The notes under the pieces: model-generated
The model's input: only the letters and a program-made list of their open reading frames with translations
Database searches by the model: none
What the model was told of the DNA's origin: nothing
Made by a program: the position numbers and the translations under genes
Origin: an uncultured SAR116 cluster alpha proteobacterium
GTDB lineage: Bacteria > Pseudomonadota > Alphaproteobacteria > Puniceispirillales > Marisalimonadaceae
Assembly: GCA_902619805.1 (NCBI GenBank)
Contig: CACNGC010000013.1
Span: 1-37,627, forward strand
Direction of reading: 5' to 3'
Length of the DNA: 37,627 nt
Shown here: positions 6,162-37,416 of the stretch, piece by piece
How the letters are laid out: each line of letters begins with the position of its first letter
Numbering within the stretch: position 1 is the first letter of the stretch

Positions 6162-6812
6162 ATGACAAGAAAATGTATAAATTGTAAAATTGAGTTCCCT
6201 AACTCAATAGATTATTTTAGGAATGAAACAGCAGAAGCATGTAGGCAATGCGGAGATTACTATCTAACAACTTCACAAAGACAATTTTTAGAAAATCACC
6301 AAATTTATGTCAAACAAGTTTTTGATGTTTTTGGATTACAAAAGAAAAATTATCAACAAAAAATGAATGCAATTGATAAAATAATTGGTGTTGGAGCTAA
6401 CCCGTGTAGAGCATTTGGCCATACTTTAAAAATGCTGTCTGGACATTGTCCACAGTGTAATACGCACCATATAGAATTTACTTTACGGTGGTTTGACAAC
6501 AAGTTTGTCTATCTTGCATTTTCACAAAAGACACAATTAATTAAAATAGGTGTAACAGATAATATTATAAAAAGAGAATTATCTTTAAACGATACAAATT
6601 ATGGAAATATTAACGACTGGAAAATTTTAAAAAGCAATTTATTTAAAAAAGCAGGTCAGGTTGAGGCTAAAATTCAAAAAGAATTAATTAGACATAGAGT
6701 TTATAGAAAATTTATAAAAGATTATAAAATTGTTTATTCTTCTGAAATTTTTAATTGTGATTTAGAAACTGCTAATTCAATATTAGATAAGTATATAGCC
6801 TCTAATTTATAA
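6162..6812 (+). CDS. zinc-ribbon protein with GIY-YIG-like domain
   Basis: The 216-residue protein begins with a zinc-binding motif (C5xxC8 and C27xxC30), has a second CPQC pair at 96-99, and then a domain from about 115 to 215 that resembles T5orf172-type GIY-YIG domains. In that domain are VYLAFSQ (116-122) and IKIGVTDN (127-134), followed by R138, YG at 147-148, DW at 152-153, then a helix with AGQVEAKIQKELI. In GIY-YIG proteins the Tyr/Gly strand, Arg and Glu form the nuclease site; here Y117, R138 and the Glu of GQVEAK are candidates. Whether it cuts nucleic acid is unknown. It starts 7 bases after the preceding stop and precedes the ARG-like gene by 18. Confidence 0.6.
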   Translation: MTRKCINCKIEFPNSIDYFRNETAEACRQCGDYYLTTSQRQFLENHQIYVKQVFDVFGLQKKNYQQKMNAIDKIIGVGANPCRAFGHTLKMLSGHCPQCNTHHIEFTLRWFDNKFVYLAFSQKTQLIKIGVTDNIIKRELSLNDTNYGNINDWKILKSNLFKKAGQVEAKIQKELIRHRVYRKFIKDYKIVYSSEIFNCDLETANSILDKYIASNL

Positions 6813-6830
6813 AAGAATAAACAATTAATT

Positions 6831-7511
6831 ATGAAAAAAAAAAATTATACTCAGTTGATTCTTAGAGGCATAAAAGAAGGTGACCAGATTGGTGGCCCAT
6901 TTGAACTTGCTCAAATTGTTTTTAAAAGTTTAAATGAAAATAGTGGATTTAATGTGAATGATTTGAGAAAAAGATATTTAAATTGGTGGAGAAATGATGC
7001 ATTTGATACTGGTCCCACTTATGCAAGCGTCTTTACTAAAATTGAAAAAGGTATCGATCCTATTTTGGCTGTTAAAACAGTTCATGAAGAATTTGGTTTT
7101 AATACAGCTGGATGCGGACCAGCTCATAGAGCAACACCAGTAGCTGGCATGTTAAAAATACCAACAGACAAACTTATCAATATAGCAAGACAAGAAGCCA
7201 AAATTACACATTTTGATAATGACGCAGGAAATGGATCTGCAATTGTAATTATGCTTTGTAGATATATATTGGAAGGTAAAAGTTTTAACGAAGCTGAAAA
7301 TCTTATTTCTAATAATAATGACTTAAAAGATAGTTGGATTAAATTGCAAAATGCTGATTTAAAACCAGATGGATACATATACAATGTTATTTTTTCAGCA
7401 CTTCACTTTATAAAAAAAAATAAAACACTTGAGGATACATTTAAATTTGCAGGAAAGGCTAATTATTGCCCTATTATTTTTTCAGTTATAAAAAAATGTA
7501 TTTCTAGATAA
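6831..7511 (+). CDS. ADP-ribosylglycohydrolase-fold protein
   Basis: The 226-residue protein shows the ARG (ADP-ribosyl hydrolase, DraG/ARH) pattern. This comprises GDQIGGPFE at 17-25 (GDxxGxPxE), WWRNDAFDTGPT at 52-63, GCGPAHRATP at 94-103 and THFDNDAGNGSA at 126-137. The last is the usual T-H...G-x-G/A-A segment near the second metal-ligand cluster. Family members remove ADP-ribose from proteins, nucleic acids or related small molecules using Mg2+. At 226 residues it is shorter than typical DraG-type enzymes (roughly 260-300), and the C-terminal metal-ligand DD motif is not obvious, so activity may be altered. It is the last gene of the 4048-7511 operon, and its pairing with ARPP-1 is the main reason to see these genes as one system. 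Confidence 0.75.
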   Translation: MKKKNYTQLILRGIKEGDQIGGPFELAQIVFKSLNENSGFNVNDLRKRYLNWWRNDAFDTGPTYASVFTKIEKGIDPILAVKTVHEEFGFNTAGCGPAHRATPVAGMLKIPTDKLINIARQEAKITHFDNDAGNGSAIVIMLCRYILEGKSFNEAENLISNNNDLKDSWIKLQNADLKPDGYIYNVIFSALHFIKKNKTLEDTFKFAGKANYCPIIFSVIKKCISR

Positions 7512-9023: not shown

Positions 9024-9221
9024 ATGAAAGTATCTAAAATTGAAGATAATAATGGCAAAAATTACATTATCAGAGACATTGAGTCTTTTTATCAACATAT
9101 TTTAGATTATCACTCATCAGGCACGTCCCTTCATGAGGAAAATGGGCATTATTTCACAATCAATGATGAATTTAGATCTAAAATAAAAAAATTATATCAA
9201 ACAACAATTAATCTTTCTTAA
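9024..9221 (+). CDS. small hypothetical protein
   Basis: I start this gene at the ATG at 9024 because AAAGGA lies 6 bases upstream; an in-frame ATG at 9009 has no ribosome-binding site. The 65-residue product contains ESFYQHILDYHSSGTSLHEE, reminiscent of small phage-type proteins, but I cannot name a family. It follows the previous stop by 19 bases and its last 14 bases overlap the convergent gene at 9208. Confidence 0.5.
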   Translation: MKVSKIEDNNGKNYIIRDIESFYQHILDYHSSGTSLHEENGHYFTINDEFRSKIKKLYQTTINLS

Positions 9222-9585
9222 AGTTAATTATTTCTGCATTTTGATATACTTTACCTTTCCAACCAAATTTTCTAAGATCATTAAACGTTATATGTTCTCC
9301 AATGTAATATTGACACAACATGTCCGGCACCTCATCTTCATCACATCTATCTAGTTCGATTGAGTATTTATGCTTATCGTACTCGTCATATTTATCATAT
9401 GTAATTAAAGACCATTTTCTCAATCCATTGTTAAAACCATGACGTTTTAAGTAAAGATCGGTTATATCCTGACACAAAGGAGGACCTGTATAAACAACAC
9501 CTAGGTAAAATACACGTTGTCTTGGTAATGGCTTTTCATATTTGAGAGGAATACAAATATTTCTTGGAAATTTAATTACTGTCAT
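9208..9585 (-). CDS. orphan family protein (paralogue of the 11559 gene)
   Basis: I place the start at 9585, where AAGGA lies 8 bases upstream and the N-terminus (MTVIKFPRN) lines up with that of the 11559-11942 product (MKNIIPFPKQ). The product of 125 residues shares with it the order PRQ...F-x-G..GP, YLxR, WSL, a run of acidic residues and a C-terminal GWKGK followed by NAxIxN. The family is unknown to me. The gene is the second of a unit whose first gene (9572-9823) carries a SAM-II/V-like leader; the two overlap by 14 bases. A broken third copy lies at 3623-3752. Confidence 0.55.
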   Translation of the reverse strand: MTVIKFPRNICIPLKYEKPLPRQRVFYLGVVYTGPPLCQDITDLYLKRHGFNNGLRKWSLITYDKYDEYDKHKYSIELDRCDEDEVPDMLCQYYIGEHITFNDLRKFGWKGKVYQNAEIINFKKD

Positions 9586-9823
9586 TTTTATCATCCTTAA
9601 ATTTCCAACCATTTCTAATTAAAATATTAATAAGTCGTTGGATTATTTCATCACGTGTTGAATTCTTATCAGCCACAGGTTCTAAAAAAAGATTTTTCTT
9701 ATTTTCAGTTTTTTCTCTGTGGGCAATATAATCTTTTAGTTTTCTGTTGTGAGATGACACAGTAAATCCTTGCTTAAAGATAGGGTCATCTTCTTTAAGT
9801 TCTTTCCATATTATTTTTTTCAT
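9572..9823 (-). CDS. small hypothetical protein behind a structured leader
   Basis: The 83-residue product is basic, without signal peptide or membrane segment, and not recognised. It is preceded by AAAGGAG, which is the 3' end of the structured leader at 9824-9888, so translation initiation is probably what that leader controls. It overlaps the next gene of the unit (9208-9585) by 14 bases, which suggests coupled translation. Confidence 0.5.
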   Translation of the reverse strand: MKKIIWKELKEDDPIFKQGFTVSSHNRKLKDYIAHREKTENKKNLFLEPVADKNSTRDEIIQRLINILIRNGWKFKDDKNDSN

Positions 9824-9888
9824 TTAAATCTCCTTTTTAGTACTTTTGTCTTTATGACTGGGTGTACAAGTTGGTTGATAAATACCCG
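9824..9888 (-). promoter_or_regulatory. structured leader, SAM-II/SAM-V-like (copy 1, divergent)
   Basis: Read on the minus strand, this leader has GGGT, then ATTTATCAACC, ACTTGTAC, ACCC, a small GTC/GAC hairpin, and GTACTAAAAAGGAG just before the ATG. GGGT pairs with ACCC, and CTTGTAC can pair with GTAC further on, overlapping the ribosome-binding site: an H-type pseudoknot. The order matches my memory of the SAM-II/SAM-V riboswitch superfamily, whose 3' end also reads CTAAAAAGG. Compared with the copies at 10153 and 11943, the first stem differs on both sides in a compensated way, which supports a selected RNA fold. Confidence 0.6.
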
Positions 9889-9909
9889 TTAGGTTGGTTG
9901 CTGCTTTTA

Positions 9910-10152
9910 TTAGCCTCCAATTTCCTCCATCATCTGTAGTGCATCTAATGGATGTAAATCAGGAAATTCTTTTAAGCCATCTCTAATTATTGATAACCTA
10001 AATTCACCAATAAGCTCCTTTTGTTCAGCTGTAAGTTGATTAATTTTTTCTTCTGGGCTGAGAGTGCGGTAAAGTTTTTCTCTGTTTAAACGCAGTTTTG
10101 TAGACATTGCATTTGCAAAGTCTTGGTCTTTTTTTGATATATCTGAAGTCAT
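9910..10152 (-). CDS. small helical hypothetical protein behind a structured leader
   Basis: The 80-residue product appears wholly alpha-helical and charged, with LSPEEKINQLTAEQKELI in the middle, and no recognised family. Its ATG follows the structured leader at 10153-10218, whose last bases (GCGGAGG) form the ribosome-binding site. It is unrelated in sequence to the products behind the other two leaders. Confidence 0.5.
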   Translation of the reverse strand: MTSDISKKDQDFANAMSTKLRLNREKLYRTLSPEEKINQLTAEQKELIGEFRLSIIRDGLKEFPDLHPLDALQMMEEIGG

Positions 10153-10218
10153 TTGAGCCTCCGCTTTAGTACTTTAGGCAGGATGCCAAGGCGTACAAGT
10201 TGGTAATTAAATGCCTTT
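10153..10218 (-). promoter_or_regulatory. structured leader, SAM-II/SAM-V-like (copy 2)
   Basis: On the minus strand the leader reads AAGGC, ATTTAATTACC, AACTTGTAC, GCCTT, a GGCA/TGCC hairpin, then AAAGTACTAAAGCGGAGG before the ATG at 10152. AAGGC pairs with GCCTT (5 bp), and the CTTGTAC loop segment can pair with the downstream GTAC, so the ribosome-binding site lies in the pseudoknotted 3' strand. It is nearly identical to the copy at 11943-12006 although the genes behind them are unrelated. Confidence 0.65.
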
Positions 10219-10295
10219 CACATATATAATAATTCAAGATTATAATTTCAAGTGAATTACATAATTTTTAAAATTTAATCTTGATAATAAAATAA

Positions 10296-10970
10296 TTAAA
10301 AAGAATAATCATCTTTGAAAACATCTTTTAAATAATGACTGAGTCTTATGTTAATTACAGATAATATCTCATTATGTAAATTTTCTTTTGAATAATTTTC
10401 TTGATGTGTTTCAGGAGTAAGTCTATCCAAGTTAAAGTGTTGAGTTTGAAAAACATCACTACTGCTTATAGGTAGAAAATTTATCAGATAATCTTTTTCA
10501 TAACGATTTATTACATGATTATTTGCATAAATTTCGTCAACTTTTTGAATTATGTCGTATTTTTTAACTTTGTTTTTTAATGTTATAATACTCTTAACGT
10601 CATTTATAAGACTTGATGTATCCCAATCATTCGGTAATGTGACATTATATCTTTCTGATATAATAATGAATTTGTATTTGTTATATGTTATGTCGATTGG
10701 AATTTTACGAAGTAAAAATTTTTCTTGAATATCATCAATATCACTTCTTATCTCTTCAATATCACGAAATAAATCAACATTATCTTTAAATGGGATATAA
10801 TCAGATATATTTGGTCTATTAATATCCTTAGTGCGAATAAGATTATGACCAATCATTTTCCTGTAAGAGCTTTTCTCTAGACCTTCAGGGTTACCTTCTT
10901 CATCATCTATAAAATTAATATTTTTTGTAATTTCATTTATAATATCTTTTTTTTCTATAATTTTCTCCAA
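10296..10970 (-). CDS. hypothetical protein
   Basis: The 224-residue protein is rich in Ile, Asn, Asp and Lys, with no signal peptide or membrane helix. A GGAG lies upstream of the ATG. No catalytic or binding motif is recognised; several amphipathic helices (for example 63-85 and 125-150) suggest a helical fold. It belongs to the orphan-gene patch between the ARG operon and the restriction-modification genes. Confidence 0.5.
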   Translation of the reverse strand: MEKIIEKKDIINEITKNINFIDDEEGNPEGLEKSSYRKMIGHNLIRTKDINRPNISDYIPFKDNVDLFRDIEEIRSDIDDIQEKFLLRKIPIDITYNKYKFIIISERYNVTLPNDWDTSSLINDVKSIITLKNKVKKYDIIQKVDEIYANNHVINRYEKDYLINFLPISSSDVFQTQHFNLDRLTPETHQENYSKENLHNEILSVINIRLSHYLKDVFKDDYSF

Positions 10971-11141
10971 TCGTTTACTTATAAAAAAAATTAATTAGTA
11001 AAGTATAATTTTTAGCCCTAAAATAAACATAATCTAATATTAATTAAATATAATGTTAAATTTTTAATACTTCTAAATTTTATGGTGACAAAGCTTGCTA
11101 ACAGGCGAGTTGCGTCTAAATAATAAAAAAGAAGGAGTATT

Positions 11142-11525
11142 ATGTATAACGTAAGTTTTGACGATAAAATTTACCTTTTTGAAGAACATAAAAAAAAAGA
11201 AACTGAAAATGTTGCTCATGTTCTTTTCTGTGAAAAATCTGTTAACCATCTTCCTTTTTATGAAATGAGGCATAAGCTAATTTTAAAAGCTGGTGAATAC
11301 CATAATGAGGGCTTTATAGATAACACAGTTACTTTTATGGATATGGTTTTTCATTACCAAACTAAAATTAATGACCTACCACATACAAAATTTGATAATT
11401 ATTGGTGGTATGACACAATTATTTTTAAATATCATATTGAGTTTTTTATATTTTTTGTCTGTTTTGAAAATCAATTAGGTAAATTTGAAAGAGAATTACA
11501 AGAAAAAATAATTTTTAACTCTTAA
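11142..11525 (+). CDS. hypothetical protein
   Basis: This 127-residue product has a strong ribosome-binding site (GAAGGAG). It is His- and aromatic-rich (for example NYWWYDTIIF and HIEFFIFFVCF near residues 86-107). The second of these stretches could be a buried strand or a short membrane-associated segment. The family is not recognised. A small inverted repeat lies upstream (about 11091-11110). Transcription probably ends at the symmetrical hairpin at 11534-11555 shared with the convergent gene. Confidence 0.55.
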   Translation: MYNVSFDDKIYLFEEHKKKETENVAHVLFCEKSVNHLPFYEMRHKLILKAGEYHNEGFIDNTVTFMDMVFHYQTKINDLPHTKFDNYWWYDTIIFKYHIEFFIFFVCFENQLGKFERELQEKIIFNS

Positions 11526-11533
11526 TAATAAAA

Positions 11534-11555
11534 AAGGAGGGTATATACCCTCCTT
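11534..11555. terminator. bidirectional terminator
   Basis: A perfect 22-base palindrome (arms AAGGAGGGTA and TACCCTCCTT around a two-base centre) lies between the convergent genes ending at 11525 and 11559. It is preceded by an A-rich run and followed by a T-rich stretch, so it can work as a Rho-independent terminator on both strands. Confidence 0.75.
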
Positions 11556-11558
11556 CAT

Positions 11559-11942
11559 TTAATTTAGTTGTTTTAGGTTAACAATAATTGCATTTTTTTT
11601 TATTTTACCTTTCCATCCCATTCTATGCAGTTTTTTATATGTAACTTGACTGAATAAATTCCATTTTTCTAACATTTCTATAACTTCATTTTCGTTACAG
11701 ACATCAATTTCAATTAACTTAAGATCACATGTTTCTTTTTGTTCTTGAAACGTTTTTAAAGACCATGTTTTTTCTTTGTTAGTATTCTCACCACGTCTTA
11801 TATTGCGTCTTAAATAGTAGTAAGTGAATTTATTATCATAAATGGGACCATGAGATATCTTACCAGCTAAAAAAAGTTGCTGTCTTGGGTATCCATTAGG
11901 TATTGTGGTAATTTGTTTAGGAAAAGGTATAATATTTTTCAT
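11559..11942 (-). CDS. orphan family protein (paralogue of the 9208 gene)
   Basis: The 127-residue product begins MKNIIPFPKQ and contains PRQQLFLAGKISHGP, YYYLRRN, KTWSLKTF and a C-terminal MGWKGKIKKNAIIVNLK. Every one of these blocks recurs in the same order in the 9208-9585 product, so the two are paralogues; the family itself is not one I can name. Here the gene follows a structured leader directly (11943-12006), whereas the paralogue is second in its unit. The C-terminal WKGK block looks like the best conserved part. Confidence 0.6.
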   Translation of the reverse strand: MKNIIPFPKQITTIPNGYPRQQLFLAGKISHGPIYDNKFTYYYLRRNIRRGENTNKEKTWSLKTFQEQKETCDLKLIEIDVCNENEVIEMLEKWNLFSQVTYKKLHRMGWKGKIKKNAIIVNLKQLN

Positions 11943-12006
11943 TTGTACATCCGCTTTAGTACTTTAGGCATGATGCCAAGGCGTACAAGTTGGTAGTTAA
12001 ATACCT
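11943..12006 (-). promoter_or_regulatory. structured leader, SAM-II/SAM-V-like (copy 3)
   Basis: On the minus strand this reads AGGT, ATTTAACTACC, AACTTGTAC, GCCT, a GGCA/TGCC hairpin, then AAAGTACTAAAGCGGATG shortly before the ATG at 11942. AGGT pairs with GCCT through a G-U pair where copy 2 has G-C, so the stem is kept. The conserved ACCAACTTGTAC and GTACTAAA segments are identical to copy 2. The ribosome-binding site is a weaker GCGGATG. Confidence 0.65.
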
Positions 12007-12063
12007 GATCGTATACGTAATTATTTTAATTGAGTTTTCAAGATTTTGTTATTATACCAGAAA

Positions 12064-12561
12064 TTATTTTGAGAGATTCATTATTAAAGATACATCTTTT
12101 TCATTTAAAACTTTTATACCGCCCTGCATGAATGCTCCCCAGTTATAAACATTATTCGACGAAGACTTTATTTTTGAAATAAAACTAATTTTTTTAAAGT
12201 TTTCTCTAAATCCAAAGGGTTTATTAAAATGCTTAATATTTTTTAAGGTTAGCAATTTCACAGGAGTATCTACCAAATATTTATCTGATTCAAACCAATA
12301 AGAATTTTTGGTAAAGTTTTCAACTTGAGCAATTTTAGCTGATGCAATTATTGAAGAAGTATACTCTAAGTTTTTGGCATTAGTTTTTCCAATGTATATG
12401 TATATTTCATCATTTTCTTTGATTTTATCTTTATGGGAGGTGCTTGCATATAATGCCCATTTTTTTTGTTTTAACCTCTCCATTGCAACATTAAATGCGT
12501 CAATTGTATAACCATTTACCGTTTCAATTTTAGAAGTTATCAATAAATATCTTGTAGTCAT
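12064..12561 (-). CDS. EVE/PUA-like domain protein, probable modified-base reader
   Basis: I use the ATG at 12561; the upstream in-frame start at 12570 is a TTG. The 165-residue product has the layout of an EVE or related PUA-like domain. An N-terminal strand (RYLLITS) is followed by a Trp segment (KKWALYAST), a KENDEIYIYIGK strand where EVE proteins read GDxVxxYxG, then IIASAKIAQV, and a late NWGAFMQGG block. EVE domains are known to bind 5-methylcytosine or other modified bases and often sit beside restriction-modification genes. The neighbour, facing away across about 100 bases, is a cytosine-C5 methyltransferase. A tethered reader or restriction role is inference. Confidence 0.5.
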   Translation of the reverse strand: MTTRYLLITSKIETVNGYTIDAFNVAMERLKQKKWALYASTSHKDKIKENDEIYIYIGKTNAKNLEYTSSIIASAKIAQVENFTKNSYWFESDKYLVDTPVKLLTLKNIKHFNKPFGFRENFKKISFISKIKSSSNNVYNWGAFMQGGIKVLNEKDVSLIMNLSK

Positions 12562-12665: not shown

Positions 12666-13682
12666 ATGAAAAAAGCAAAAATTTTATCATTATTTTCAGG
12701 TGCTGGTGGGCTAGATTTAGGCTTTAGAAATGCAGGGTTTGAAATTATAACTTCTAATGAGATAGATACTGACACATTTGATACTTACAAGTATAACTTC
12801 CCAACAACGAAGCACATTGGTGGATCAATAGTTGAACTTAATAAAGATGACCTTGAAGACTACTACGATGGAATTATTGGAGGACCTCCTTGTCAAAGTT
12901 GGAGTGAGGCAGGAAAACAAAAAGGCATAGATGACCCTCGAGGTAAATTATTTTACGAATACATAAGGATCCTTGATTTAATCAAACCAAAGTTTTTTCT
13001 TGCTGAAAATGTTTCAGGAATGCTGCATAAAAAACACCAAAATTCTTTAAATAATATAGCTGAAAGATTTTCTAATGTTGGTTACAATGTGGATTATAAA
13101 CTTCTTGATGCTGTTGATTATAATGTCCCTCAAAACAGAAAAAGAGTATTTATAATTGGAATAAGAAATGATGTGGAAAAGAAATTTGTTTTTCCATCCA
13201 TTGATCTATTCAAACCAAATAAAACATTAAAAGATGCCCTAGCTGATTTACCTAAACCCAAACCCGCGCTAGAAAAAAATAAAAGTAACTATAAAAATCA
13301 TGTTACAAAAACGAATCAAATGGCAAATAATGAATATATGATCGGTAGTTTTTCAACAATTTTCATGTCAAGAAATCGAGTAAGAAATTGGGATGAACCC
13401 TCTTTCACAATTCAGGCTGGAGGAAGACATGCGCCGATACATCCAGATGCTCCAAAAATGACGAAAGTTGAAAAAGATTTATTTCAATTTTGTAAGAAAA
13501 ATTTAAATAAATATAGACGTTTATCAGTCAGAGAATGTGCGAGGATACAAACATTTCCAGATGAATTTGTTTTCTTTTATGAACAAGTAGCTGATGCTTA
13601 TAAAATGATTGGTAATGCTGTTCCAGTTAAATTAGCAGAGTCTCTAGCTATTGAAATCAAAAACCAGCTTTTTCCCTCCTAA
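12666..13682 (+). CDS. DNA (cytosine-5) methyltransferase
   Basis: The 338-residue enzyme transfers a methyl group from SAM to carbon 5 of cytosine in DNA. All main motifs are in order: I (FSGAGGLDLGF, 10-20), IV (GGPPCQSWS, 72-80, catalytic Cys76), VI (AENV, 113-116), VIII (PQNRKRVFIIG, 155-165), IX (RECARIQTFPDEF) and X (MIGNAVPVKLA, about 314-324). The target-recognition region between VIII and IX is of ordinary size (about 90 residues). The last 39 bases overlap tail-to-tail with the endonuclease gene on the other strand, a typical type II restriction-modification layout. If the partner is NgoPII-like, the target may be GGCC; that is inference. Confidence 0.93.
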   Translation: MKKAKILSLFSGAGGLDLGFRNAGFEIITSNEIDTDTFDTYKYNFPTTKHIGGSIVELNKDDLEDYYDGIIGGPPCQSWSEAGKQKGIDDPRGKLFYEYIRILDLIKPKFFLAENVSGMLHKKHQNSLNNIAERFSNVGYNVDYKLLDAVDYNVPQNRKRVFIIGIRNDVEKKFVFPSIDLFKPNKTLKDALADLPKPKPALEKNKSNYKNHVTKTNQMANNEYMIGSFSTIFMSRNRVRNWDEPSFTIQAGGRHAPIHPDAPKMTKVEKDLFQFCKKNLNKYRRLSVRECARIQTFPDEFVFFYEQVADAYKMIGNAVPVKLAESLAIEIKNQLFPS

Positions 13683-14513
13683 TTGAAAATGAATGTATTT
13701 GCATTTCATAATATTATTTTTATTCATCGGCGATACAATATTTTTATCTTGAATTTTAATATCATTTTCTTTCTCTAATAATTTAATAGCATCGTTTTGA
13801 AAGGAAAAATATTTATCATTAGTCATTATACAAAAAACATTTAAATCACTTGTTTTATTAATTTTACAAAATTCAAAAATTTTAAATGGATTCCTAAGAA
13901 TAAACATAGGTCTAACTCTAAGGTCAGTGTAGTTTAGTGGATCAATATTGTTCAGACGTGCCAATTCTGCAGTTTGAGAAAATGTAAAATTACCTCTATG
14001 GATTTGTTCTTTAATATTTTCAAAAATTTCCTGATAGTAATCGTAAGAACAAGCAAAACATGTACCTTGAATAAAAAAAACATGTTTTAATATTTTTTTT
14101 TCTTGATAACCAATAATATAAAAAATATCTTTTTCTTTCCATGAAACTAATTCACTACTTCTACATTTATTTGTGAGTTTTGGATCATCAAATTTAAGTT
14201 TGTTTTTGGGAAATGAACTATTTAAATGTATATCAGATGTGACAGATTCTAATTTTTTAACCTCAAAAGCATCACCTTCTCTTAAAATAAAGTCAGGAGG
14301 ATTTTTACTATTTCCTAAATAAGAAAAGTAATCTAATTCATTATTAGGATAATCTTCATCATTTTCATCAATAAATAATTTTTTAATGTAAGTCTCAAGT
14401 TTAGCTCCAACGTCATTTATCCTATTACCTGTATTAGATGTTTCATTAATTTCCAGATTTTTAAGATTATACAAATTTATTAAAGCGTTAATTACATTTG
14501 TTTTTGATGACAT
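13644..14513 (-). CDS. type II restriction endonuclease, NgoPII-like
   Basis: The 289-residue protein resembles the NgoPII family. It begins with an INALINLYNL-type N-terminus and has a central NPPDFILREGDAFEVKK block (71-87) that holds the PD-(D/E)XK catalytic residues (D74 and E84-V85-K86). Further on come KLTNKCRSSELV-like and DLRVRPMFILRNPFKIF segments, the latter matching the LRVRGMWxIENPF region I recall for NgoPII. NgoPII itself cleaves GGCC, so GGCC is the working guess for this system. It overlaps convergently with the methyltransferase that would protect the host DNA. No frameshift or lost catalytic residue is seen. Confidence 0.75.
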   Translation of the reverse strand: MSSKTNVINALINLYNLKNLEINETSNTGNRINDVGAKLETYIKKLFIDENDEDYPNNELDYFSYLGNSKNPPDFILREGDAFEVKKLESVTSDIHLNSSFPKNKLKFDDPKLTNKCRSSELVSWKEKDIFYIIGYQEKKILKHVFFIQGTCFACSYDYYQEIFENIKEQIHRGNFTFSQTAELARLNNIDPLNYTDLRVRPMFILRNPFKIFEFCKINKTSDLNVFCIMTNDKYFSFQNDAIKLLEKENDIKIQDKNIVSPMNKNNIMKCKYIHFQLGGKKLVFDFNS

Positions 14514-24831: not shown

Positions 24832-26067
24832 CTAACAATCATAATTATTATTATCTAGAAACTTTAAAAATTTTGGCTTTATTTCATTTCTCCATGCCTT
24901 TCCACTAAAAATTCCATAATGACCAGCATTTTTTTGTAAATGAGAGATTTTTTTATTTTTTGGTAGATTCTTCAATAATTTCACTGCAGCTAGGCATTGT
25001 CCAGGTGCTGAAATATCATCATTAGCACCTTCTATTATAAATACAGCAGTATTTTGAATATTTTCTATATCAATTTTTTTATTATCAATTGAAAATTTAT
25101 TTAGTGCGATTTCTCTGTTTTTAAAAATTCTATCAACTGTGGATAAATAAAACTCTGCTGTCATATCCATAACTGCTAAATATTCATCATAAAAAGTATT
25201 GTGTCTATCTACTTCAGATGCTTCACCATTTATTTCTCTTAAAATCTGATCATGGAAAGCTTTTTGATGGGTTTGTGGGTTCATTGATAAAAAAGATAAA
25301 ATTTGAATTATACCAGGATAGACCATCCTACCAACACCATTATAATTTATACCTACTGACATGGTCATAGTATTTTTTAATTTATCCATCTGTATTTTGT
25401 TTCCAAAATCAGTGACTGCTGTTGGATTTGCTTCTGGATCAATAGGTCCTCCTATTAAAGTTAGAGTAGATGGGACATACTTTTTCTCTTTAGCAAGAAA
25501 AGCTGTCGCTGCTAATGCTAATGGAGCTGGTTGACATACTGCGATAACATTTAATTTTGGAGCAAGTTTTTTAAAGAAATTTATTAAATATTTTGTAAAA
25601 TCTTCTATATCAAATTTTCCATGTGAACTAGGAATATCTCTCGCATTTTTCCAGTCGGTAACGTAAACATCACAATCAGGCAAAAGCGATATAACTGTAT
25701 TTCGAACTAAAGTAGAATAATGACCTGACATTGGAGCAATTATAAGTACTTTTCGTTCTTTATTATTATTATTTTCTTTTTCAAATTTTATAAGATTACA
25801 AAAAGGAAAATCCATTATAATTTTTTCATTAACATAATATTCTTTATTTCCAGAAATATATGAAGAAATACCCCAATCTGGTTTTGAAGATATTCTAGAT
25901 AATGAATGCTCTGTTACCTTTCCCCACGCAGCAAAGGCAGGGGGCAATGGACTTGGAAGCAACCCAAATATAGGATTGTTCCAAAATGTTCTAGTTGAAG
26001 ACGCAAGCCACTGATAATACTGTTTGTTAATTTCAAAAAGATCATAAGATTGTGTTGGCGATAACAT
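24832..26067 (-). CDS. phaZ: intracellular PHA depolymerase
   Basis: The 411-residue alpha/beta-hydrolase breaks down stored PHA. The family is recognised from MLSPTQSYDL at the start, IIAPMSGHYSTLVRNTV (109-125), the nucleophile Cys178 in VCQPAPLALAATAFL, GGPIDPEANPT and a late HYGIFSGKAWR with the catalytic His. The Asp of the triad is likely in EGANDDISAPGQ. Cys instead of Ser as nucleophile is the hallmark of the PhaZ1-type intracellular enzymes. It is divergent from phaC, with a 73-base intergenic region that must hold both promoters. Confidence 0.9.
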   Translation of the reverse strand: MLSPTQSYDLFEINKQYYQWLASSTRTFWNNPIFGLLPSPLPPAFAAWGKVTEHSLSRISSKPDWGISSYISGNKEYYVNEKIIMDFPFCNLIKFEKENNNNKERKVLIIAPMSGHYSTLVRNTVISLLPDCDVYVTDWKNARDIPSSHGKFDIEDFTKYLINFFKKLAPKLNVIAVCQPAPLALAATAFLAKEKKYVPSTLTLIGGPIDPEANPTAVTDFGNKIQMDKLKNTMTMSVGINYNGVGRMVYPGIIQILSFLSMNPQTHQKAFHDQILREINGEASEVDRHNTFYDEYLAVMDMTAEFYLSTVDRIFKNREIALNKFSIDNKKIDIENIQNTAVFIIEGANDDISAPGQCLAAVKLLKNLPKNKKISHLQKNAGHYGIFSGKAWRNEIKPKFLKFLDNNNYDC

Positions 26068-26140
26068 TATTACCCCTTTAAAAAATAAACTAGTTAACTT
26101 ATTATAACACTATGATTAAAAACTCACAAAGGCAAATAAA

Positions 26141-27913
26141 TTGAAGGATAATAAAAATCAATACGAAAATTTTGATTTTGATGAACTCAAAAAAAATTTA
26201 GAAAAAGTTGATGTTCTTACAAAAAGATTAGTATTTATAATAGCATCTAAATCTAAGAAACAACAAATAACTCAACCAAATCAAGATCTTTACTATAAAG
26301 CTGCAGCTAAATATTTTTCTGAAATACTTTCAAACCCTTCTAAATTAATAGAAAACCAAGTTAAGTATTACAAATCATCTTTAGAAACGTGGTCAGATGT
26401 CCAAAGATATTTTCTCAAGCAAGAAAATAATAATCCAAAAAAAAATGATAAACGCTTTAGAAGTGTTACGTGGGAAGAAAATCCATATTTTAAAATGATA
26501 AAGCAACAATATCTTACTTCTTCAGATATAATTCAGGAAACTATTACGGGAATAGACGGTCTTAGTCATCCTGAGCAAAAACAAATTACTTTTTTTACAA
26601 AGCAAATGCTGGAGTTTTTTTCTCCCACAAATTTTCTAATGACAAACCCAGACGCACTTCAAGAGGCTATGGAAACTAAGGGTCAGTCGTTAGTGAATGG
26701 ATTAGAAAATTTAGTTGATGATCTTGAAAAGAATGATGGTGAATTTAATGTCTCACTTACTGATGAAACTGCATTTGAGATAGGGAAAAATATTGCTAAT
26801 GCCGAAGGATCCGTAATCTATGAAAATAAGTTATATCAATTAATTTACTATAAACCAACTCAAGAAATATCACATCAAATACCAATATTAATAATTCCTC
26901 CCTGGATAAATAAATTTTACATTTTAGATCTAAAACCAGAAAATAGTTTTATTAAATTTTTATTGAGCAAGGGTATTCCAGTTTTTTTAATGTCTTGGGT
27001 TAATCCTGACAGCAGTCATTCTGAAATAGGTTATGATGATTATCTTAAAGATGGTTTACTGGACGCTATTGAACAAACTAGAAGGTTTTATTCTGTAGAT
27101 TTAATAAATTCAATCGGTTATTGCATTGGAGGTACACTATTAGCCACAGGATTGAGTTATCTAAATGCAAGAAAATTAGAATATATTAAGTCAGCATCTT
27201 TTTTTACTACTCTTACTGATTTTGAAGATCCAGGGGATTTATCAATATTTGTTTCAGATGAGTATTTAAATACAATTAAAGATCAAATTGATGATCTTGG
27301 TTTTATGGATGGTGATTTTTTATCCCAAACATTTAGTTTTTTAAGGTCTAATGACCTAATTTATGGTCCTGCAGTAAAGTCATATTTAATGGGTAAAAAG
27401 CCTCCACCATTTGACCTGTTATATTGGAATAGTGATTCAACAAATTTACCTGCGAAAATGGCTCTAGAATATTTAGAAAAATTTTATAAAAATAACGATT
27501 TCTCAAAAGGTAAGCTAGAAGTTTTAGGTGAAAAAGTTAATTTAGAACAAATTTCGCAACCTATTATAGTTATTGGAACTTTTAATGACCATATAGCTCC
27601 ATGGAAATCATCTTTTAACGGTTTGAGTAAAACCTCTGGAGAAAAAGTATTTATTCTTGCAGGAAGCGGACATATTGCAGGAATAATTAATCCAGAACAT
27701 TCTAATAAATACGAGTATTGGATCAATAATGAAAATTATTCAACCCCTGAAAAATGGTTCAATAGTTCTATAAATAAAAATGGTTCTTGGTGGAATGAAT
27801 GGTATGAATGGAAAAAACAATTTTTAGCAGAGAAAATAATTTCAACTAAAATGATTGGAATTACTGAAATAGAACCTGCTCCAGGACGTTATGTAAAAAA
27901 GAAAAATAAATAA
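26141..27913 (+). CDS. phaC: class I PHA synthase
   Basis: The 590-residue enzyme polymerises (R)-3-hydroxyacyl-CoA into PHA at the granule surface. The lipase-like box GYCIGG (326-331) holds the catalytic Cys328; the other triad members are Asp483 (GTFNDHIAPW) and His511 (GSGHIAGI). The length and the N-terminal domain (WEENPYFKMIKQQYL) are typical of class I enzymes. The start is a TTG at 26141, preceded by AAAGG with 8 bases spacing; there is no better ATG. The C-terminus ends in the family PAPGRYVKKK. The phasin and phaR genes follow on the same strand. Confidence 0.95.
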   Translation: MKDNKNQYENFDFDELKKNLEKVDVLTKRLVFIIASKSKKQQITQPNQDLYYKAAAKYFSEILSNPSKLIENQVKYYKSSLETWSDVQRYFLKQENNNPKKNDKRFRSVTWEENPYFKMIKQQYLTSSDIIQETITGIDGLSHPEQKQITFFTKQMLEFFSPTNFLMTNPDALQEAMETKGQSLVNGLENLVDDLEKNDGEFNVSLTDETAFEIGKNIANAEGSVIYENKLYQLIYYKPTQEISHQIPILIIPPWINKFYILDLKPENSFIKFLLSKGIPVFLMSWVNPDSSHSEIGYDDYLKDGLLDAIEQTRRFYSVDLINSIGYCIGGTLLATGLSYLNARKLEYIKSASFFTTLTDFEDPGDLSIFVSDEYLNTIKDQIDDLGFMDGDFLSQTFSFLRSNDLIYGPAVKSYLMGKKPPPFDLLYWNSDSTNLPAKMALEYLEKFYKNNDFSKGKLEVLGEKVNLEQISQPIIVIGTFNDHIAPWKSSFNGLSKTSGEKVFILAGSGHIAGIINPEHSNKYEYWINNENYSTPEKWFNSSINKNGSWWNEWYEWKKQFLAEKIISTKMIGITEIEPAPGRYVKKKNK

Positions 27914-27914
27914 T

Positions 27915-27967
27915 TTGCAGTTGCAGCATTTTTCTATTGACAATTTCTGCAATGCGGCATATATATT
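27915..27967 (+). promoter_or_regulatory. phasin promoter with PhaR-type operator
   Basis: TTGACA (27937-27942) and TATATA (27960-27965) are 17 bases apart, a good sigma-70 promoter. Two TGC/GCA-rich imperfect palindromes flank and fill it: TTGCAGTTGCAGCA (27915-27928) and TTCTGCAATGCGGCA (27945-27959), the second lying in the spacer. PhaR repressors of alphaproteobacteria bind CTGC-N-GCAG-type sites before phasin genes, and phaR itself lies two genes downstream. Binding here would block RNA polymerase until granules titrate PhaR away. Confidence 0.7.
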
Positions 27968-27997
27968 ACTCATGTTAATCAAATTATGGAGCACTTT

Positions 27998-28420
27998 ATG
28001 TTTACATTTGACGAATACACAAAAAATTTTGAGAAGTTTTCTACTCAAAACCCTTTTTTGTCTTCACATTCCTTAGATGATATACTTGAATTCAATTCAA
28101 AGTTATCAAAAATCGCATTGGAAACAATTAAAAAAAATACAGAGCTTAGCCAAGAATGGTCTAAAGAAACTTTGAATTCACTAGAAACATTTACTAAGAC
28201 ACAGAAAAATCCAAGCGACTATTCAAAAGTAATAAACGATTTTGTTACTCAACAAACACAATCTTCTCCAAAACATATAGCTGAATTTGCTGAAATAGCA
28301 AAAAAGGCTCAATTGGATACTATAGATTTATATATGTCTGCTGGAAAAGAAATGAACAAAGAAATGACTAAAACAGCAACAAAAACATCAAATAAAACTG
28401 TTGTGACATCTTCAGAATAA
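27998..28420 (+). CDS. phaP: phasin
   Basis: I start at 27998 because GGAG at 27988-27991 is 6 bases upstream; the in-frame ATG at 27986 overlaps that site. The 140-residue protein is almost wholly helical with the phasin pattern: FEKF and LEFNSKLSKIALETIKKN in the first part, QEWSKETLNSLE, then HIAEFAEIAKKAQLDTIDLY. Phasins coat PHA granules and control their number and size. Regulation by PhaR is expected from the operator at 27915-27967. The gene is followed by a strong hairpin (28430-28466). Confidence 0.85.
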   Translation: MFTFDEYTKNFEKFSTQNPFLSSHSLDDILEFNSKLSKIALETIKKNTELSQEWSKETLNSLETFTKTQKNPSDYSKVINDFVTQQTQSSPKHIAEFAEIAKKAQLDTIDLYMSAGKEMNKEMTKTATKTSNKTVVTSSE

Positions 28421-28429
28421 TTTATCATA

Positions 28430-28466
28430 GAAACTAGTAAAGGATATAATATTCTTTACTAGTTTC
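28430..28466 (+). terminator. hairpin between phasin and phaR
   Basis: A perfect 13-bp stem (GAAACTAGTAAAG at 28430-28442 with CTTTACTAGTTTC at 28454-28466, 11-base loop) lies between the phasin stop and phaR. The following bases (TAACTTTCAATTTA) are only modestly T-rich. It may cut phasin transcription partly, protect the abundant phasin mRNA from 3' decay, or set a high phasin to low PhaR ratio. Confidence 0.6.
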
Positions 28467-28494
28467 TAACTTTCAATTTATGAGGCAATAAATT

Positions 28495-29061
28495 TTGTCT
28501 GAAGAACAAATATTGATAACCCGATATTCCAGCAGACGTTTATATAATACCAATTCAAGTGAATATGTTACACTTGAGGAAATATCAACACTTATTAAAA
28601 GTGGTAAAAATATAAAAATAATTGATAAGCAAACTGGTGAAGATTTAACTAAACAATATCTTCTTCAAATAATCTCTGATATTGAAAACAAAGATGGTAA
28701 CATTCTTCCAGAGAATATGTTGACTGAGATAATTAAAAGTTATAGCAATGCAACAGAAAAAATCATGCCAGACATGGTGGCTAAAACATTTGAGTTCTAC
28801 CAAAACCAACAAAGTGAATTTTTAAAACATCTCAACACTAAAAGTGTCAATCCATTCACGGACAAATCCAGTTCAGAATTAATGCAAGATTGGCAGTCAA
28901 AACAATTTGAATTGATGAAAGATTTTCTAAATCCCTGGGATAAAAAAGAAAATACAGAAAATCCCTCTAATGAAAAATCGTCACTGAGTGACAAAGACGA
29001 AATTGAAATTTTAAAAAAACAAATGTCTGAACTTAAAGAAGAGTTAAATAAGAAAAAGTAA
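28495..29061 (+). CDS. phaR: PHA synthesis repressor PhaR
   Basis: The 188-residue protein starts with a TTG at 28495, 9 bases after GAGG. It shows the PHB accumulation regulator N-terminal domain (RYSSRRLYNTNSSEYVTLEE, about 9-28, and IIDKQTGEDLTKQYLLQII, about 43-61), the DNA- and PHB-binding part. A second helical region follows, then a Gln/Lys-rich C-terminus ending in a coiled coil. PhaR binds PHA granules and represses phasin and its own gene when free. An operator is visible before the phasin gene but not right before this TTG, so its regulation may come through the upstream promoter. Confidence 0.92.
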   Translation: MSEEQILITRYSSRRLYNTNSSEYVTLEEISTLIKSGKNIKIIDKQTGEDLTKQYLLQIISDIENKDGNILPENMLTEIIKSYSNATEKIMPDMVAKTFEFYQNQQSEFLKHLNTKSVNPFTDKSSSELMQDWQSKQFELMKDFLNPWDKKENTENPSNEKSSLSDKDEIEILKKQMSELKEELNKKK

Positions 29062-29333: not shown

Positions 29334-29340
29334 AAATTAA

Positions 29341-29440
29341 TTGTAGGCTGAGTTGTAGACTAAATTAATATCATTCTATAATATCTCATTAAATCAGATG
29401 GTTACAATGAAATAACGAGGAGGTTATCTCCTCCAAATTA
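29341..29440 (+). repeat. dispersed ~95-bp repeat, copy A
   Basis: TAGGCT (29344) and TAGACT (29356) stand 12 bases apart and are followed by a conserved AT-rich middle, AATCAGATG, AATGAAATAACGAGGAGG and then a core-like CTCCTCCAAAT about 84 bases from the first unit. The last bases also form a GAGGAG/CTCCTC hairpin, which could end egtBD transcription on the minus strand. Same-strand copies B, C and D lie at 31824, 33097 and 37317. Confidence 0.75.
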
Positions 29441-31540
29441 TTTGACTTTAAATAACATAACGGCAAATAGGTTTTCTTTATCTGTCCATGTCGAAATTTT
29501 CTCAAAACCAGAAGAGGCAGCCAAATCTACAAATTCATGGATGTGATATTTATATGAATTTTCTGTATGAATTGTTTCACCAGCTGTAAAAAAAAATCTT
29601 TCTTTACCAATATTAACTACTTGATCAACACAACTTTCAAGATGCATTTCTATTCTACCTTCTAAAGTGTTAAAGCGTACAATATGACGAAATAAATTTT
29701 GATTAAAATCAGCACCTAGTTCTTGATTAATTCTCGAGAGAAGATTTTTATTAAAAGAATCTGTAATACCTTTATTGTCATCATACGCTCTAAGCAGGCG
29801 TTCATAATCTTTTTTTAAATCAACACCTATTAACAATTTTCCGTTTATACCAACAGTTTTGCAAATTGATTGTAAGAATGTTTTAGCACTAATTGGCTCA
29901 AAATTTCCAATAGTTGAACCTGGGAAAAATGCAATTTTTGACTTTGTCTGTCTTTTAGATTTCGGTATTTTCAGTGATGAAGTGAAATCAGTAGCGACTG
30001 TTAAAACCTCAAGCTTGGGGTAGGCCTCACGTATAGTATATGCTCCTTTTTGCAATTGTTCTTCCGAAATATCAATTGCACAAAGTGAAACTGGATCAAT
30101 TAATTTGTCTAGTAGTATACGTATTTTCTCAAGAGATCCAGAACCGTATTCAATAAGCGTTACATTCGAGCCAAGATATTTTGCTATTTCAGTCGCATTA
30201 TTTTTAAGAATACCTACTTCTGTTCTTGTTGGATAATAATCCTCAAGTTTACAAATTTTTTCGAATAAACGAGCACCCTCATTATTATAAAGATATTTTG
30301 ATGATATATGTTTAGGTATTGAACTTAATCCTGAAATAACATCATTAAAAAATTTGTCTTTATTACAATTATCATTAGCATGAAGACTATAATTAGTAGC
30401 AGATTTGTCCTTGGCCAAACGTATTCCTGAAAATTGCCAACGCGCACTTGGAGGAAAGAAGTTACGGTATGAAGCCCTGATGTGATCTGAAGAAGAGGCG
30501 CATGAACCACCGCGTAAAACCATTTGGCCAGACATAAATTTTCCGTTATATTCTCCTATTGCACCATCCGCGATCTGATAGCCTGGATAAGCAGCAAATG
30601 AGCTTTGTGTCCATTCCCACACATCTCCATAAATTTGTGTAACTCCATCTTTTGTTGAAGGTTGTGGTGCAAATATATTAGAGTCAGCAAAATTACCCTC
30701 AATATCAAATGATTTAGCAATTATTTCCCACTCAGACTCTCGAGGCAACCTAGCATTAGACCATCGAGCGAATGCATCAGCTTCATAATAACTAACATGA
30801 CAAACCGGAGCGTTCAAATTTATTGGTATTATACCACTCATTGTATAATAAGACCAAGTACCATCACCATTTTTATACCAATACATTGGAGATTCCCAAT
30901 GTTCCTTTTGGCATAAAGTCCATCCGTCAGATAACCAAAACTCTGCCTTCTTGTAACCCCCATCCTCAATAAAGTTTATATATTCACGATTTGATACAGG
31001 ATTTTTTGCTAAACAAAATGGTTCTAGCCAAATTTTATGTCTGGGACCTTCGGCATCAAAAATAAACTTTTCTCCAGAATATCCAATTTCGACAAGCCCC
31101 CCTGGATGATCTAACCAGTTTGGTTTACTTACACTTAATCCTTTTACTGGAATAGGATCTCTATATTTAGGATACAATGGATTTCTTGAAAAAGCATGTT
31201 TTATGTCTGTTATTAAAAGTTCTTGATGTTGTTGTTCGTGATGAATGCCAAGTTCTATCAATCGTAAAACATCAGATTTTGGTTTCATTTGAAAGTATTC
31301 TTTCATTTTATTATCAATATAATTTCTATATTCGTATACCTCAGCTGATGAAGGACGGGTTATCATACCTCTTTCAGGTCTAGCGTGACGATCCCCTATT
31401 TTATTATAATAAGAATTAAATAAGAAATTATAGTTAGGATGAAACTCTTGGTAATTTCTAACAAATTTTTTAAGGATAAACGTTTCAAAAAACCAAGTTG
31501 TATGAGCTAAATGCCATTTAGTTGGACTTGCATCAGGCAT
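29438..31540 (-). CDS. EgtB-EgtD fusion (ergothioneine biosynthesis)
   Basis: The 700-residue frame joins two ergothioneine enzymes. The N-terminal part (to about 380) is EgtB. It contains WHLAHTTWFFE (9-19), the iron-binding HHEQQHQE (100-107, ligands H101 and H105 with an early His), and the formylglycine-generating-like domain with QIYGDVWEWTQSSF and LRGGSCASS. The C-terminal part (from about 400) is EgtD, the SAM-dependent histidine N-methyltransferase, with LYNNEGARLFEKICKLEDYY, EYGSGSLEKIR, IDISEEQLQKG and FFPGSTIGNFEP. Eukaryotic Egt1 has the reverse order. The ATG at 31540 lies inside the conserved EgtB region; homologous coding (QSLSEPLSEADQCIQS) continues upstream to about 31660 but has no ATG, GTG or TTG before the stop at 31694-31696. 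The start codon is therefore lost or unusual (ATT possible), and the gene could be damaged at its 5' end. Confidence 0.85.
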   Translation of the reverse strand: MPDASPTKWHLAHTTWFFETFILKKFVRNYQEFHPNYNFLFNSYYNKIGDRHARPERGMITRPSSAEVYEYRNYIDNKMKEYFQMKPKSDVLRLIELGIHHEQQHQELLITDIKHAFSRNPLYPKYRDPIPVKGLSVSKPNWLDHPGGLVEIGYSGEKFIFDAEGPRHKIWLEPFCLAKNPVSNREYINFIEDGGYKKAEFWLSDGWTLCQKEHWESPMYWYKNGDGTWSYYTMSGIIPINLNAPVCHVSYYEADAFARWSNARLPRESEWEIIAKSFDIEGNFADSNIFAPQPSTKDGVTQIYGDVWEWTQSSFAAYPGYQIADGAIGEYNGKFMSGQMVLRGGSCASSSDHIRASYRNFFPPSARWQFSGIRLAKDKSATNYSLHANDNCNKDKFFNDVISGLSSIPKHISSKYLYNNEGARLFEKICKLEDYYPTRTEVGILKNNATEIAKYLGSNVTLIEYGSGSLEKIRILLDKLIDPVSLCAIDISEEQLQKGAYTIREAYPKLEVLTVATDFTSSLKIPKSKRQTKSKIAFFPGSTIGNFEPISAKTFLQSICKTVGINGKLLIGVDLKKDYERLLRAYDDNKGITDSFNKNLLSRINQELGADFNQNLFRHIVRFNTLEGRIEMHLESCVDQVVNIGKERFFFTAGETIHTENSYKYHIHEFVDLAASSGFEKISTWTDKENLFAVMLFKVK

Positions 31541-31823: not shown

Positions 31824-31925
31824 TTCATAGACTGTTTTGTAGACTGAATAATTATTATTATATAAAATCTAATTAAATCAGATGATAAAAATGAAATAAC
31901 GAGGAGGTTATATCCTTTTTATTGT
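31824..31925 (+). repeat. dispersed ~95-bp repeat, copy B
   Basis: TAGACT at 31828 and 31840 (12 bases apart), then ATTATTATTATATAAAATC, AAATCAGATGAT, AATGAAATAACGAGGAGG and a core-like ATATCCTTTTT about 84 bases from the first unit. It lies between the 5' end of the egtBD gene and the AEC transporter gene. The rest of the 31700-32073 gap is AT-rich DNA without a visible gene. Confidence 0.75.
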
Positions 31926-32073
31926 TTTAGATAGTACGCTAATGCCCAAAAGTTAGTCATTAAAAGCCAAATCTTGTTAAACTAGTTTAAGACTTTGTTG
32001 ATCTCCTAAAATTACTTTACATGTTAAGTATATCAAAATATATTAAAGTAGAATAAAAGAATTAATCTTATAA

Positions 32074-33054: not shown

Positions 33055-33096
33055 TTACACCTCAGTGCTTTTTGGATATAAAATATAGAATTTAGA

Positions 33097-33195
33097 TTGT
33101 AGACTAAAGTGTAGACTAAAATATTATTATTATATAGAATCTAATCAAACAAGATGATTAAGATGAAATAATGATGAGGTTCCCTTTAATAAATT
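33097..33195 (+). repeat. dispersed ~95-bp repeat, copy C
   Basis: TAGACT at 33100 and 33112, ATTATTATTATATAGAATC, AACAAGATGATTAAGATG, AAATAATGATGAGG and a core-like TTCCCTTTAATAAA 82 bases from the first unit. It is closest to copy B in the AT-rich middle. It follows the AEC transporter stop by about 40 bases. Confidence 0.75.
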
Positions 33196-37272: not shown

Positions 37273-37316
37273 AAATTAAAAGATGTTAGTATTCATACAT
37301 AAAATTTAATAAACAA

Positions 37317-37416
37317 TTTGTAGACTAAATTGTAGACTGTAAAATAACAATTTTGTAATAAATAACATAATCAGATGTTTAAAATGAAATAACTAAGATG
37401 TTCCCTCCGCCATAAA
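37317..37416 (+). repeat. dispersed ~95-bp repeat, copy D, ending in a tRNA-Ser-like core
   Basis: TAGACT at 37321 and 37333, an AT-rich middle that has diverged, AATCAGATG, AAAATGAAATAAC and then CCCTCCGCCATAA at 37404-37416. That core is identical to the one at 14657-14669. Among the four copies only D keeps a tRNA-Ser-like end; it may therefore mark a recombination boundary on this side. Confidence 0.75.

Follow-up and report, generated by a model that had tools for sequence, protein, structure and literature searches.

Riboswitches for S-adenosylmethionine (SAM) are familiar from methionine and SAM genes, on which they exert feedback control. One class, SAM-V (RF01826), precedes metY, bhmT and mmuM in Pelagibacter and forms an H-type pseudoknot of helices P1, P2 and P3, with a UUU third strand, a U47-A50 pocket and a 3' end that carries the ribosome-binding site. 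In its crystal structure, U47 and A50 hold SAM, the sulfonium faces U20:A48.U9, and SAM stabilises the triplex and the P2a helix, by which the ribosome-binding site is hidden (PMC6061858). At bhmT of Candidatus Pelagibacter ubique, SAM-II and SAM-V stand in tandem (PMC5069961). Here, we analysed three leaders, named a, b and c, on the minus strand of a 37,627-nucleotide (nt) stretch of DNA from a SAR116 cluster alphaproteobacterium (contig CACNGC010000013.1, the window). They share the SAM-V features listed above, but they stand before small orphan genes instead of methionine genes, score below the Rfam cut-off, and have C for A at position 18 and mostly A-U for G-C at pair 23-44. Judging from sequence, the window leaders are very probably SAM-V-type riboswitches of a SAR116 lineage, controlling the small orphan genes. 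The matches listed in a literature search of titles and abstract beginnings included no SAM riboswitches before these gene families and no SAM-V arrays in SAR116.

The three leaders in the window

The original prediction had reported three minus-strand leaders with shared blocks in a fixed order, ending at the ribosome-binding site, and all three are present as described. Each is 63 nt long with the ATG 3 nt past the element; the blocks ATTTA..ACC, ACTTGTAC and GTACTAAA follow in that order in every copy, and the ribosome-binding sites at the ends of leaders a, b and c are GGAG, GGAGG and GGA. Leader a (9827..9889) has P1 GGGU/ACCC, P3 GUC/GAC and P2 UUGUAC/GUAC-U-AA and closes on the ribosome-binding site AAGGAG. 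Leader b (10156..10218) combines P1 AGGC/GCCU with P3 GGC/GCC and ends in GCGGAGG, and leader c (11946..12008) has P1 AGGU/GCCU, P3 GGC/GCC and the 3' end GCGGA. The paired changes in P1 and P3 claimed earlier are therefore real. The pattern ACTTGTAC-N(4,30)-GTACTAAA occurs three times in the 1.98-Mb genome, always inside the window, and the backwards pattern does not occur in it.

The Rfam SAM_V model gave leaders a, b and c 33.8, 31.2 and 25.7 bits, and R1, a covariance model built from leaders that include these three themselves, gave 76.2, 86.1 and 80.1 bits. In a permissive search of positions 9700-12200 with 4,227 Rfam families, SAM_V was the best match at the three leaders (E 0.005, 0.018 and 0.28) and matched nowhere else, and no SAM-II (SAM_alpha) match was found there at E<=10. 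A fourth copy in the same genome, on contig C10 (G000:C10:21924-21984 by R1), reaches 45.1 bits and passes the Rfam SAM_V cut-off. The proposed covariance-model check thus came out for SAM-V at all three leaders, below threshold and with a sister copy above it, but not for SAM-II.

For the structure, 50 SAM_V-model matches (47 distinct rows) were aligned, and the pseudoknot was written from the SAM-V structure. In this H-type fold (P1, P2 and hairpin P3), 98.9% of 702 cells are paired and 7 of 15 pairs show two-sided changes, so the covariation expected in homologous leaders was found; the covarying pairs include one C-G to U-A change. The covariation score was 0.288 against 0.135 (standard deviation 0.010) in shuffled alignments, none of 500 shuffles scored as high, and structures slid by 1-3 columns left 29-56% of cells paired, although both controls favour a structure derived from related sequences. 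P2 pair 23-44 is A-U in 34, G-C in 10 and G-U in 3 of the distinct rows. P2a, the pairing of columns 17-18 with 58-59 of the Shine-Dalgarno sequence, is paired in 96.8% of cells with one-sided changes only, which gives it no covariation support.

Pocket positions were matched to those of the crystal structure (PMC6061858) by counting along the Rfam consensus. The 50 leaders, of which 7 precede metY or bhmT and 43 do not, all agree at U9, U10, U19, U20, G21 and U47-A50. Several observations weigh against the identification. The conservation of this core is partly selected, since it was the SAM_V model that served to find the 50 leaders. The window has no hit at Rfam gathering thresholds, the SAM_V cut-off being 41 bits. 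At position 18, where the crystallised metY RNA has A18 as partner of A50, 46 of the 50 leaders have C and 4 have A, and U8 is kept in 44 and changed in 6. Minimum-free-energy folds of single leaders were no better than those of shuffled sequences, with a tool unable to form pseudoknots. Finally, at E<=10 SAM_V matched in 9 of 14 control genomes, none over the cut-off. Since C18 also occurs in all 7 metY and bhmT leaders of the order, it is a lineage feature and not an orphan-gene feature. Because position 18 departs from the crystallised RNA, we call the leaders SAM-V-type, a variant rather than a strict member.

Orphan gene families behind the leaders

Four genes on the minus strand follow the window leaders. 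Behind leader a lie an 83-amino-acid family B protein (9572..9823; ORF and family search) and, as second gene, a family C protein (9208..9585; open reading frame (ORF), alignment and search), for which the ORF list starts at 9612 and the family near 9585. Leader b precedes a small helical family A protein of 80 amino acids (9910..10152; ORF and search), and leader c a divergent family C protein of 127 amino acids (11559..11942; ORF, alignment and search). With the Mrr protein described below excepted, the orphan families tested passed no Pfam cut-off and had no NCBIfam or PADLOC match (family D: Pfam only), and this includes the family B protein of the window. A Phage_CRI match of the family C protein (E 0.019, below the cut-off of that family) was not believed. 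Structure prediction gave a model of low quality for family C (predicted local distance difference test, pLDDT, 45.8), and the helical model of family A (pLDDT 81.7) had no PDB match at E<=0.001.

The leader is widespread in relatives. RF01826 matched at E<=0.1 in 28 of 61 genomes, the own genome included, vs none of 14 control genomes, and was over the cut-off in 8 of the 61. Of 136 genomes of the order, 62 have R1 matches, 111 leaders in all, preceding 11 metY, 4 bhmT and 86 other ORFs, with 10 leaders lacking an intact ORF. The earlier statement that such leaders precede small genes of unrelated, orphan type holds at this scale: almost all of the 86 ORFs are small and have no known function, 84 of them being shorter than 225 amino acids. 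In the genus of the window, 40 of 47 leaders stand before other ORFs, 7 lack an intact ORF and none precedes metY or bhmT. The spacing from leader to start codon is 2-6 nt at 99 of the 101 leaders with an ORF, and 9 of the 10 leaders without one also have changed core or ribosome-binding-site letters by eye.

BLASTP clustering of the ORFs behind the leaders of the 136 genomes gave families with 32 places (B including the E-type, 45-83 amino acids), 13 (A), 13 (F), 12 (C), 6 (D, one doubtful) and 5 (G), together with an Mrr-domain protein at 2 places and 3 single ORFs. The Mrr-domain protein has 265 amino acids and carries an Mrr restriction-endonuclease domain (PF04471, E 5.7e-6). The families are reassorted between operons: the order is leader-B-C in the window, leader-E-F-(53 amino acids)-C in G004 and G022, and leader-C-F in G042.

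The pairing of leader and gene recurs in other genomes, a check proposed with the original prediction. A profile search of the 136 genomes found families A, B, C and F at 106 places, 94 of them leader-associated (71 with the leader directly upstream and 23 with a leader within 1.1 kb on the same strand), a count that is not blind because most of the sequences that went into the profiles have a leader. The other 12 places lack a leader under the distance rule and count against a strict association. Two of them (family B in G114 and G117) overlap their leader, a case outside the rule, two lie at a contig end (G086:C3) or 59 nt from one (G016:C18), two are broken (G104, G024:C11) and one is a 20-residue match (G084). 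At the remaining five, F and B in G019 and again in G036 and an F-like ORF in G004, neither R1 nor Rfam found a SAM aptamer.

At the level of the class, R1 matched in 19 of 385 genomes, four of those in the order. Some of the leaders outside the order precede metY, mmuM-, metK- and OmpW-like genes, all named by eye. At two loci (L404 and L402, in G184 and G479), a SAM-V-type leader is followed by an outer-membrane-like protein gene and then metX- and metW-like genes, again named by eye. A loose DNA pattern searched in viral and genome collections gave mostly chance matches among the matches listed, according to rescoring with R1. R1 found 5 weak matches in 100 viral loci (best E 0.061), 7 matches in 5 genome loci (3 SAR116 and 2 alphaproteobacteria) of a second set, made up of 20 viral and 80 genome loci, and none in a final set of 38 genome loci. 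Among the matches listed for the viral collection, 120 loci in total, the leader was not seen.

The window holds a further, degenerate leader-like sequence (31909..31971, minus strand; R1 33.9 bits) with broken pairs and no ORF behind it, which is probably a decayed leader copy. Similar copies were seen in G026 and G004, next to the same repeat of about 90 nt. This dispersed intergenic repeat lies on the minus strand of the window at 29339-29435, 31828-31915, 33082-33181 and 37315-37412, with further copies in relatives, and the copy at 31828-31915 abuts the decayed leader. About 370 nt downstream of the latter is an ORF (29438-31540) with FGE-sulfatase and histidine-specific methyltransferase domains (PF03781, PF10017), which we take to be EgtB/EgtD-like.

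Other SAM aptamers at the same genes

In some relatives a second element stands upstream of the SAM-V-type leader. A regular expression written from seen copies found a SAM-II-like element upstream of 17 leaders, 4 before bhmT, 7 before metY and 6 before orphan genes. The six orphan tandems comprise four E-F operons, including that on contig C10 of the own genome, the Mrr nuclease of G096 and an A-type gene of G086. The 17 elements have a mean column identity of 87%, and all 9 named pairs hold in 14 distinct rows. Six elements at metY or bhmT score 27-35 bits with the Rfam SAM_alpha model, none over its cut-off of 36. A terminator-like hairpin follows the SAM-II-like copy on C10 (fold z -3.5). 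A tRNA, considered for the conserved stretch upstream of some leaders, was rejected on test, the stretch being the SAM-II-like element. SAM-II-like/SAM-V tandems before bhmT or metY outside Pelagibacter were seen at L055, L056, L065, L066, L057, L368-L372 and L375.

The arrangement resembles that of Candidatus Pelagibacter ubique in the order of its parts, SAM-II-like and then SAM-V, but it occurs here outside Pelagibacter, also before orphan operons and an Mrr-type nuclease gene, and is absent at leaders a-c. Of the SAM-II/SAM-V-like class first proposed for the window leaders, the SAM-V part stands and the SAM-II part does not; some relatives, and contig C10, carry the SAM-II-like element in addition, upstream of the leader, whereas leaders a-c lack it. 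Three results are unfavourable to its assignment to SAM-II: the alignment has only one covarying pair with two-sided change, the Rfam SAM-II model misses the orphan-associated elements in the two regions tested, and a consensus terminator scan finds none at the own-genome copy.

The same gene families were also met outside the order. In G254 a SAM-II-like/SAM-V tandem precedes family G, and in G239 a homologue of family C (hhalign probability 98.8%) lies behind a tandem, with a 32-amino-acid ORF in between. Searched as protein, family G gave 7 places in 5 of 385 genomes, four already known from R1 and three new. SAM-I/IV (RF01725), an aptamer of unrelated fold that is not in the window, lies upstream of family G in G420 (71.2 bits, over the cut-off), with SAM-V at 38.6 bits (below the cut-off) in between, and in G355 (70.2 bits, over the cut-off), with one gene in between. 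The third new place, in G328, starts close to its contig end. SAM-I/IV over the cut-off also occurs near SAM-V-type leaders of G414, G195, G508 and G486, likewise alphaproteobacteria, and the gene directly behind SAM-V in G254 is a homologue of the gene behind SAM-I/IV in G508 (BLASTP E 6e-14). Members of these families follow SAM-II/SAM-V tandems, and some of their relatives lie downstream of SAM-I/IV, which suggests that selection has acted on the response to SAM.

Two further observations concern single loci. At L393 in G195, a DUF3293 gene follows SAM-I/IV and, next, an SNF2-type helicase gene follows SAM-V; the locus also has a gene for a phage integrase. A by-eye likeness of the genes behind the G420 SAM-V to families D and B was dropped, since BLASTP gave no alignment to one D sequence and the hhalign match of the B-like gene covered only 23 residues (probability 17.6%).

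Cassette exchange and the role of the orphan proteins

The leaders coincide with changes in the surrounding DNA. In the relative G021, a single leader takes the place of leaders b and c of the window, with the upstream side of leader c and the downstream side of leader b, and the stretch between these (10219..11945) is absent at this place. The upstream 400 nt of the G021 leader match those of leader c at 0.915 vs 0.539 for leader b, and the downstream 300 nt match those of leader b at 0.80 vs 0.50 for leader c, the mean of random pairs being 0.49. The flanks were compared for 93 leaders that scored 60 bits or more and had sufficient flank, in pairs that are not independent. Similarity was lost behind the leader in 50 of 110 pairs similar up to it, and the upstream sides were dissimilar in 235 of 286 pairs similar behind it. 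At shifted positions the first rate was at most 10% at 10 of 14 and the second at 13 of 14; 700-3000 nt upstream the two rates were 0-0.06 and 0-0.10. The second rate was 0.83 (64/77) at -400, and the first was 0.09-0.58 from +400 to +2000, as expected for cassette ends. As far as the flanking alignments tell, the leaders are the breakpoints at which cassettes were exchanged. We propose that the leaders control cassettes of small orphan proteins, which reassort on variable islands, and that copies of the leader act as homologous seams for the exchange.

By analogy with the published SAM-V mechanism, we infer that the leaders are OFF switches and that the small proteins are made at low SAM, as the original prediction had suggested. 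At sufficient SAM, formation of the triplex and of the short P2a helix would cover the ribosome-binding site, and a drop in SAM would expose it and allow translation of the small proteins. The most likely role of the orphan proteins, held with about even confidence, is that of a low-SAM response module for methyl or sulfur stress on island DNA. A broader interpretation, at somewhat long odds, is that of a mobile, recombining cassette system of marine alphaproteobacteria: several unrelated SAM riboswitch classes may have been recruited to one orphan set, with which island DNA would read SAM and launch a defence-like or take-over programme at SAM collapse, the leaders doubling as seams.

A competing role, compatible with the riboswitch identification and possible at somewhat long odds, is that the small genes are an island defence or counter-defence module which reads SAM collapse as phage attack or restriction-modification stress. 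The SAM-using methyltransferase noted earlier on the same island is indeed a C5-cytosine methyltransferase (12666-13682, plus strand; Pfam PF00145 and PADLOC type II models), and with an NgoPII-type restriction enzyme (13644-14513, minus strand; PF09521 and PADLOC type II models) it lies beside the window array. The Mrr-type nuclease directly behind the tandem in G096, an Mrr/ResIII helicase in the G016 locus and integrases in the G195 and G414 loci point the same way. Against this role, PADLOC matched none of the six orphan proteins tested nor the Mrr-type protein (0 families), and leader b and a family G query had no match in phage or plasmid records. It is the neighbouring genes alone (restriction-modification, nucleases, integrases) that suggest defence, and likewise phage infection, which the original prediction gave as an example of a trigger.

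It is improbable that the leaders have kept the SAM-V fold with a changed ligand, the orphan genes answering another metabolite. Such a change would suit orphan families without a tie to methionine, the absence of metY and bhmT behind the 47 leaders of the genus, and the G at U8 in four family E leaders. It also has a precedent in the SAM-I variants that sense spermidine, which likewise place a SAM-type aptamer before genes outside methionine metabolism (PMC10853860). In those variants, however, contact residues are changed, whereas the leaders here keep the other ligand contacts, which match those of metY and bhmT leaders. Moreover, the SAM-II-like elements at six orphan leaders and SAM-I/IV at related genes would need a parallel change of ligand. 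Least probable of all is that the leader is mainly a mobile, DNA-level recombination seam kept for cassette exchange and not for regulation, since the breakpoints concentrated at the leader and the G021 chimera fit it, but compensatory pseudoknot changes, a conserved pocket and a 2-6 nt start spacing are not needed for recombination, and the association with other SAM aptamer classes also speaks against it.

Some neighbouring genes were recorded in their own right. Positions 6162-7511 of the window, beside the array, encode a T5orf172-domain protein and an ADP-ribosylglycohydrolase, and DNA similar to the latter gene lies near the array in several relatives. At 24832-29061 there are polyhydroxybutyrate genes, namely a depolymerase, the PhaC synthase and a regulator of polyhydroxybutyrate accumulation.

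Taken together, the observation behind the original prediction was confirmed, and its interpretation as SAM-II/SAM-V-like switches before orphan genes is supported. Most leaders of this marine order (86/111), and every ORF-bearing leader of the window's genus (40/40), control genes other than metY and bhmT if the riboswitch identification is right. The comparison suggests that ocean bacteria have a SAM-responsive gene set that has so far gone unrecognised and has no obvious role in methionine synthesis, and the link to SAM makes the function of the set testable by changing one metabolite. Our results also suggest a route by which riboswitches may spread, in which the leader is a shared seam for cassette exchange.

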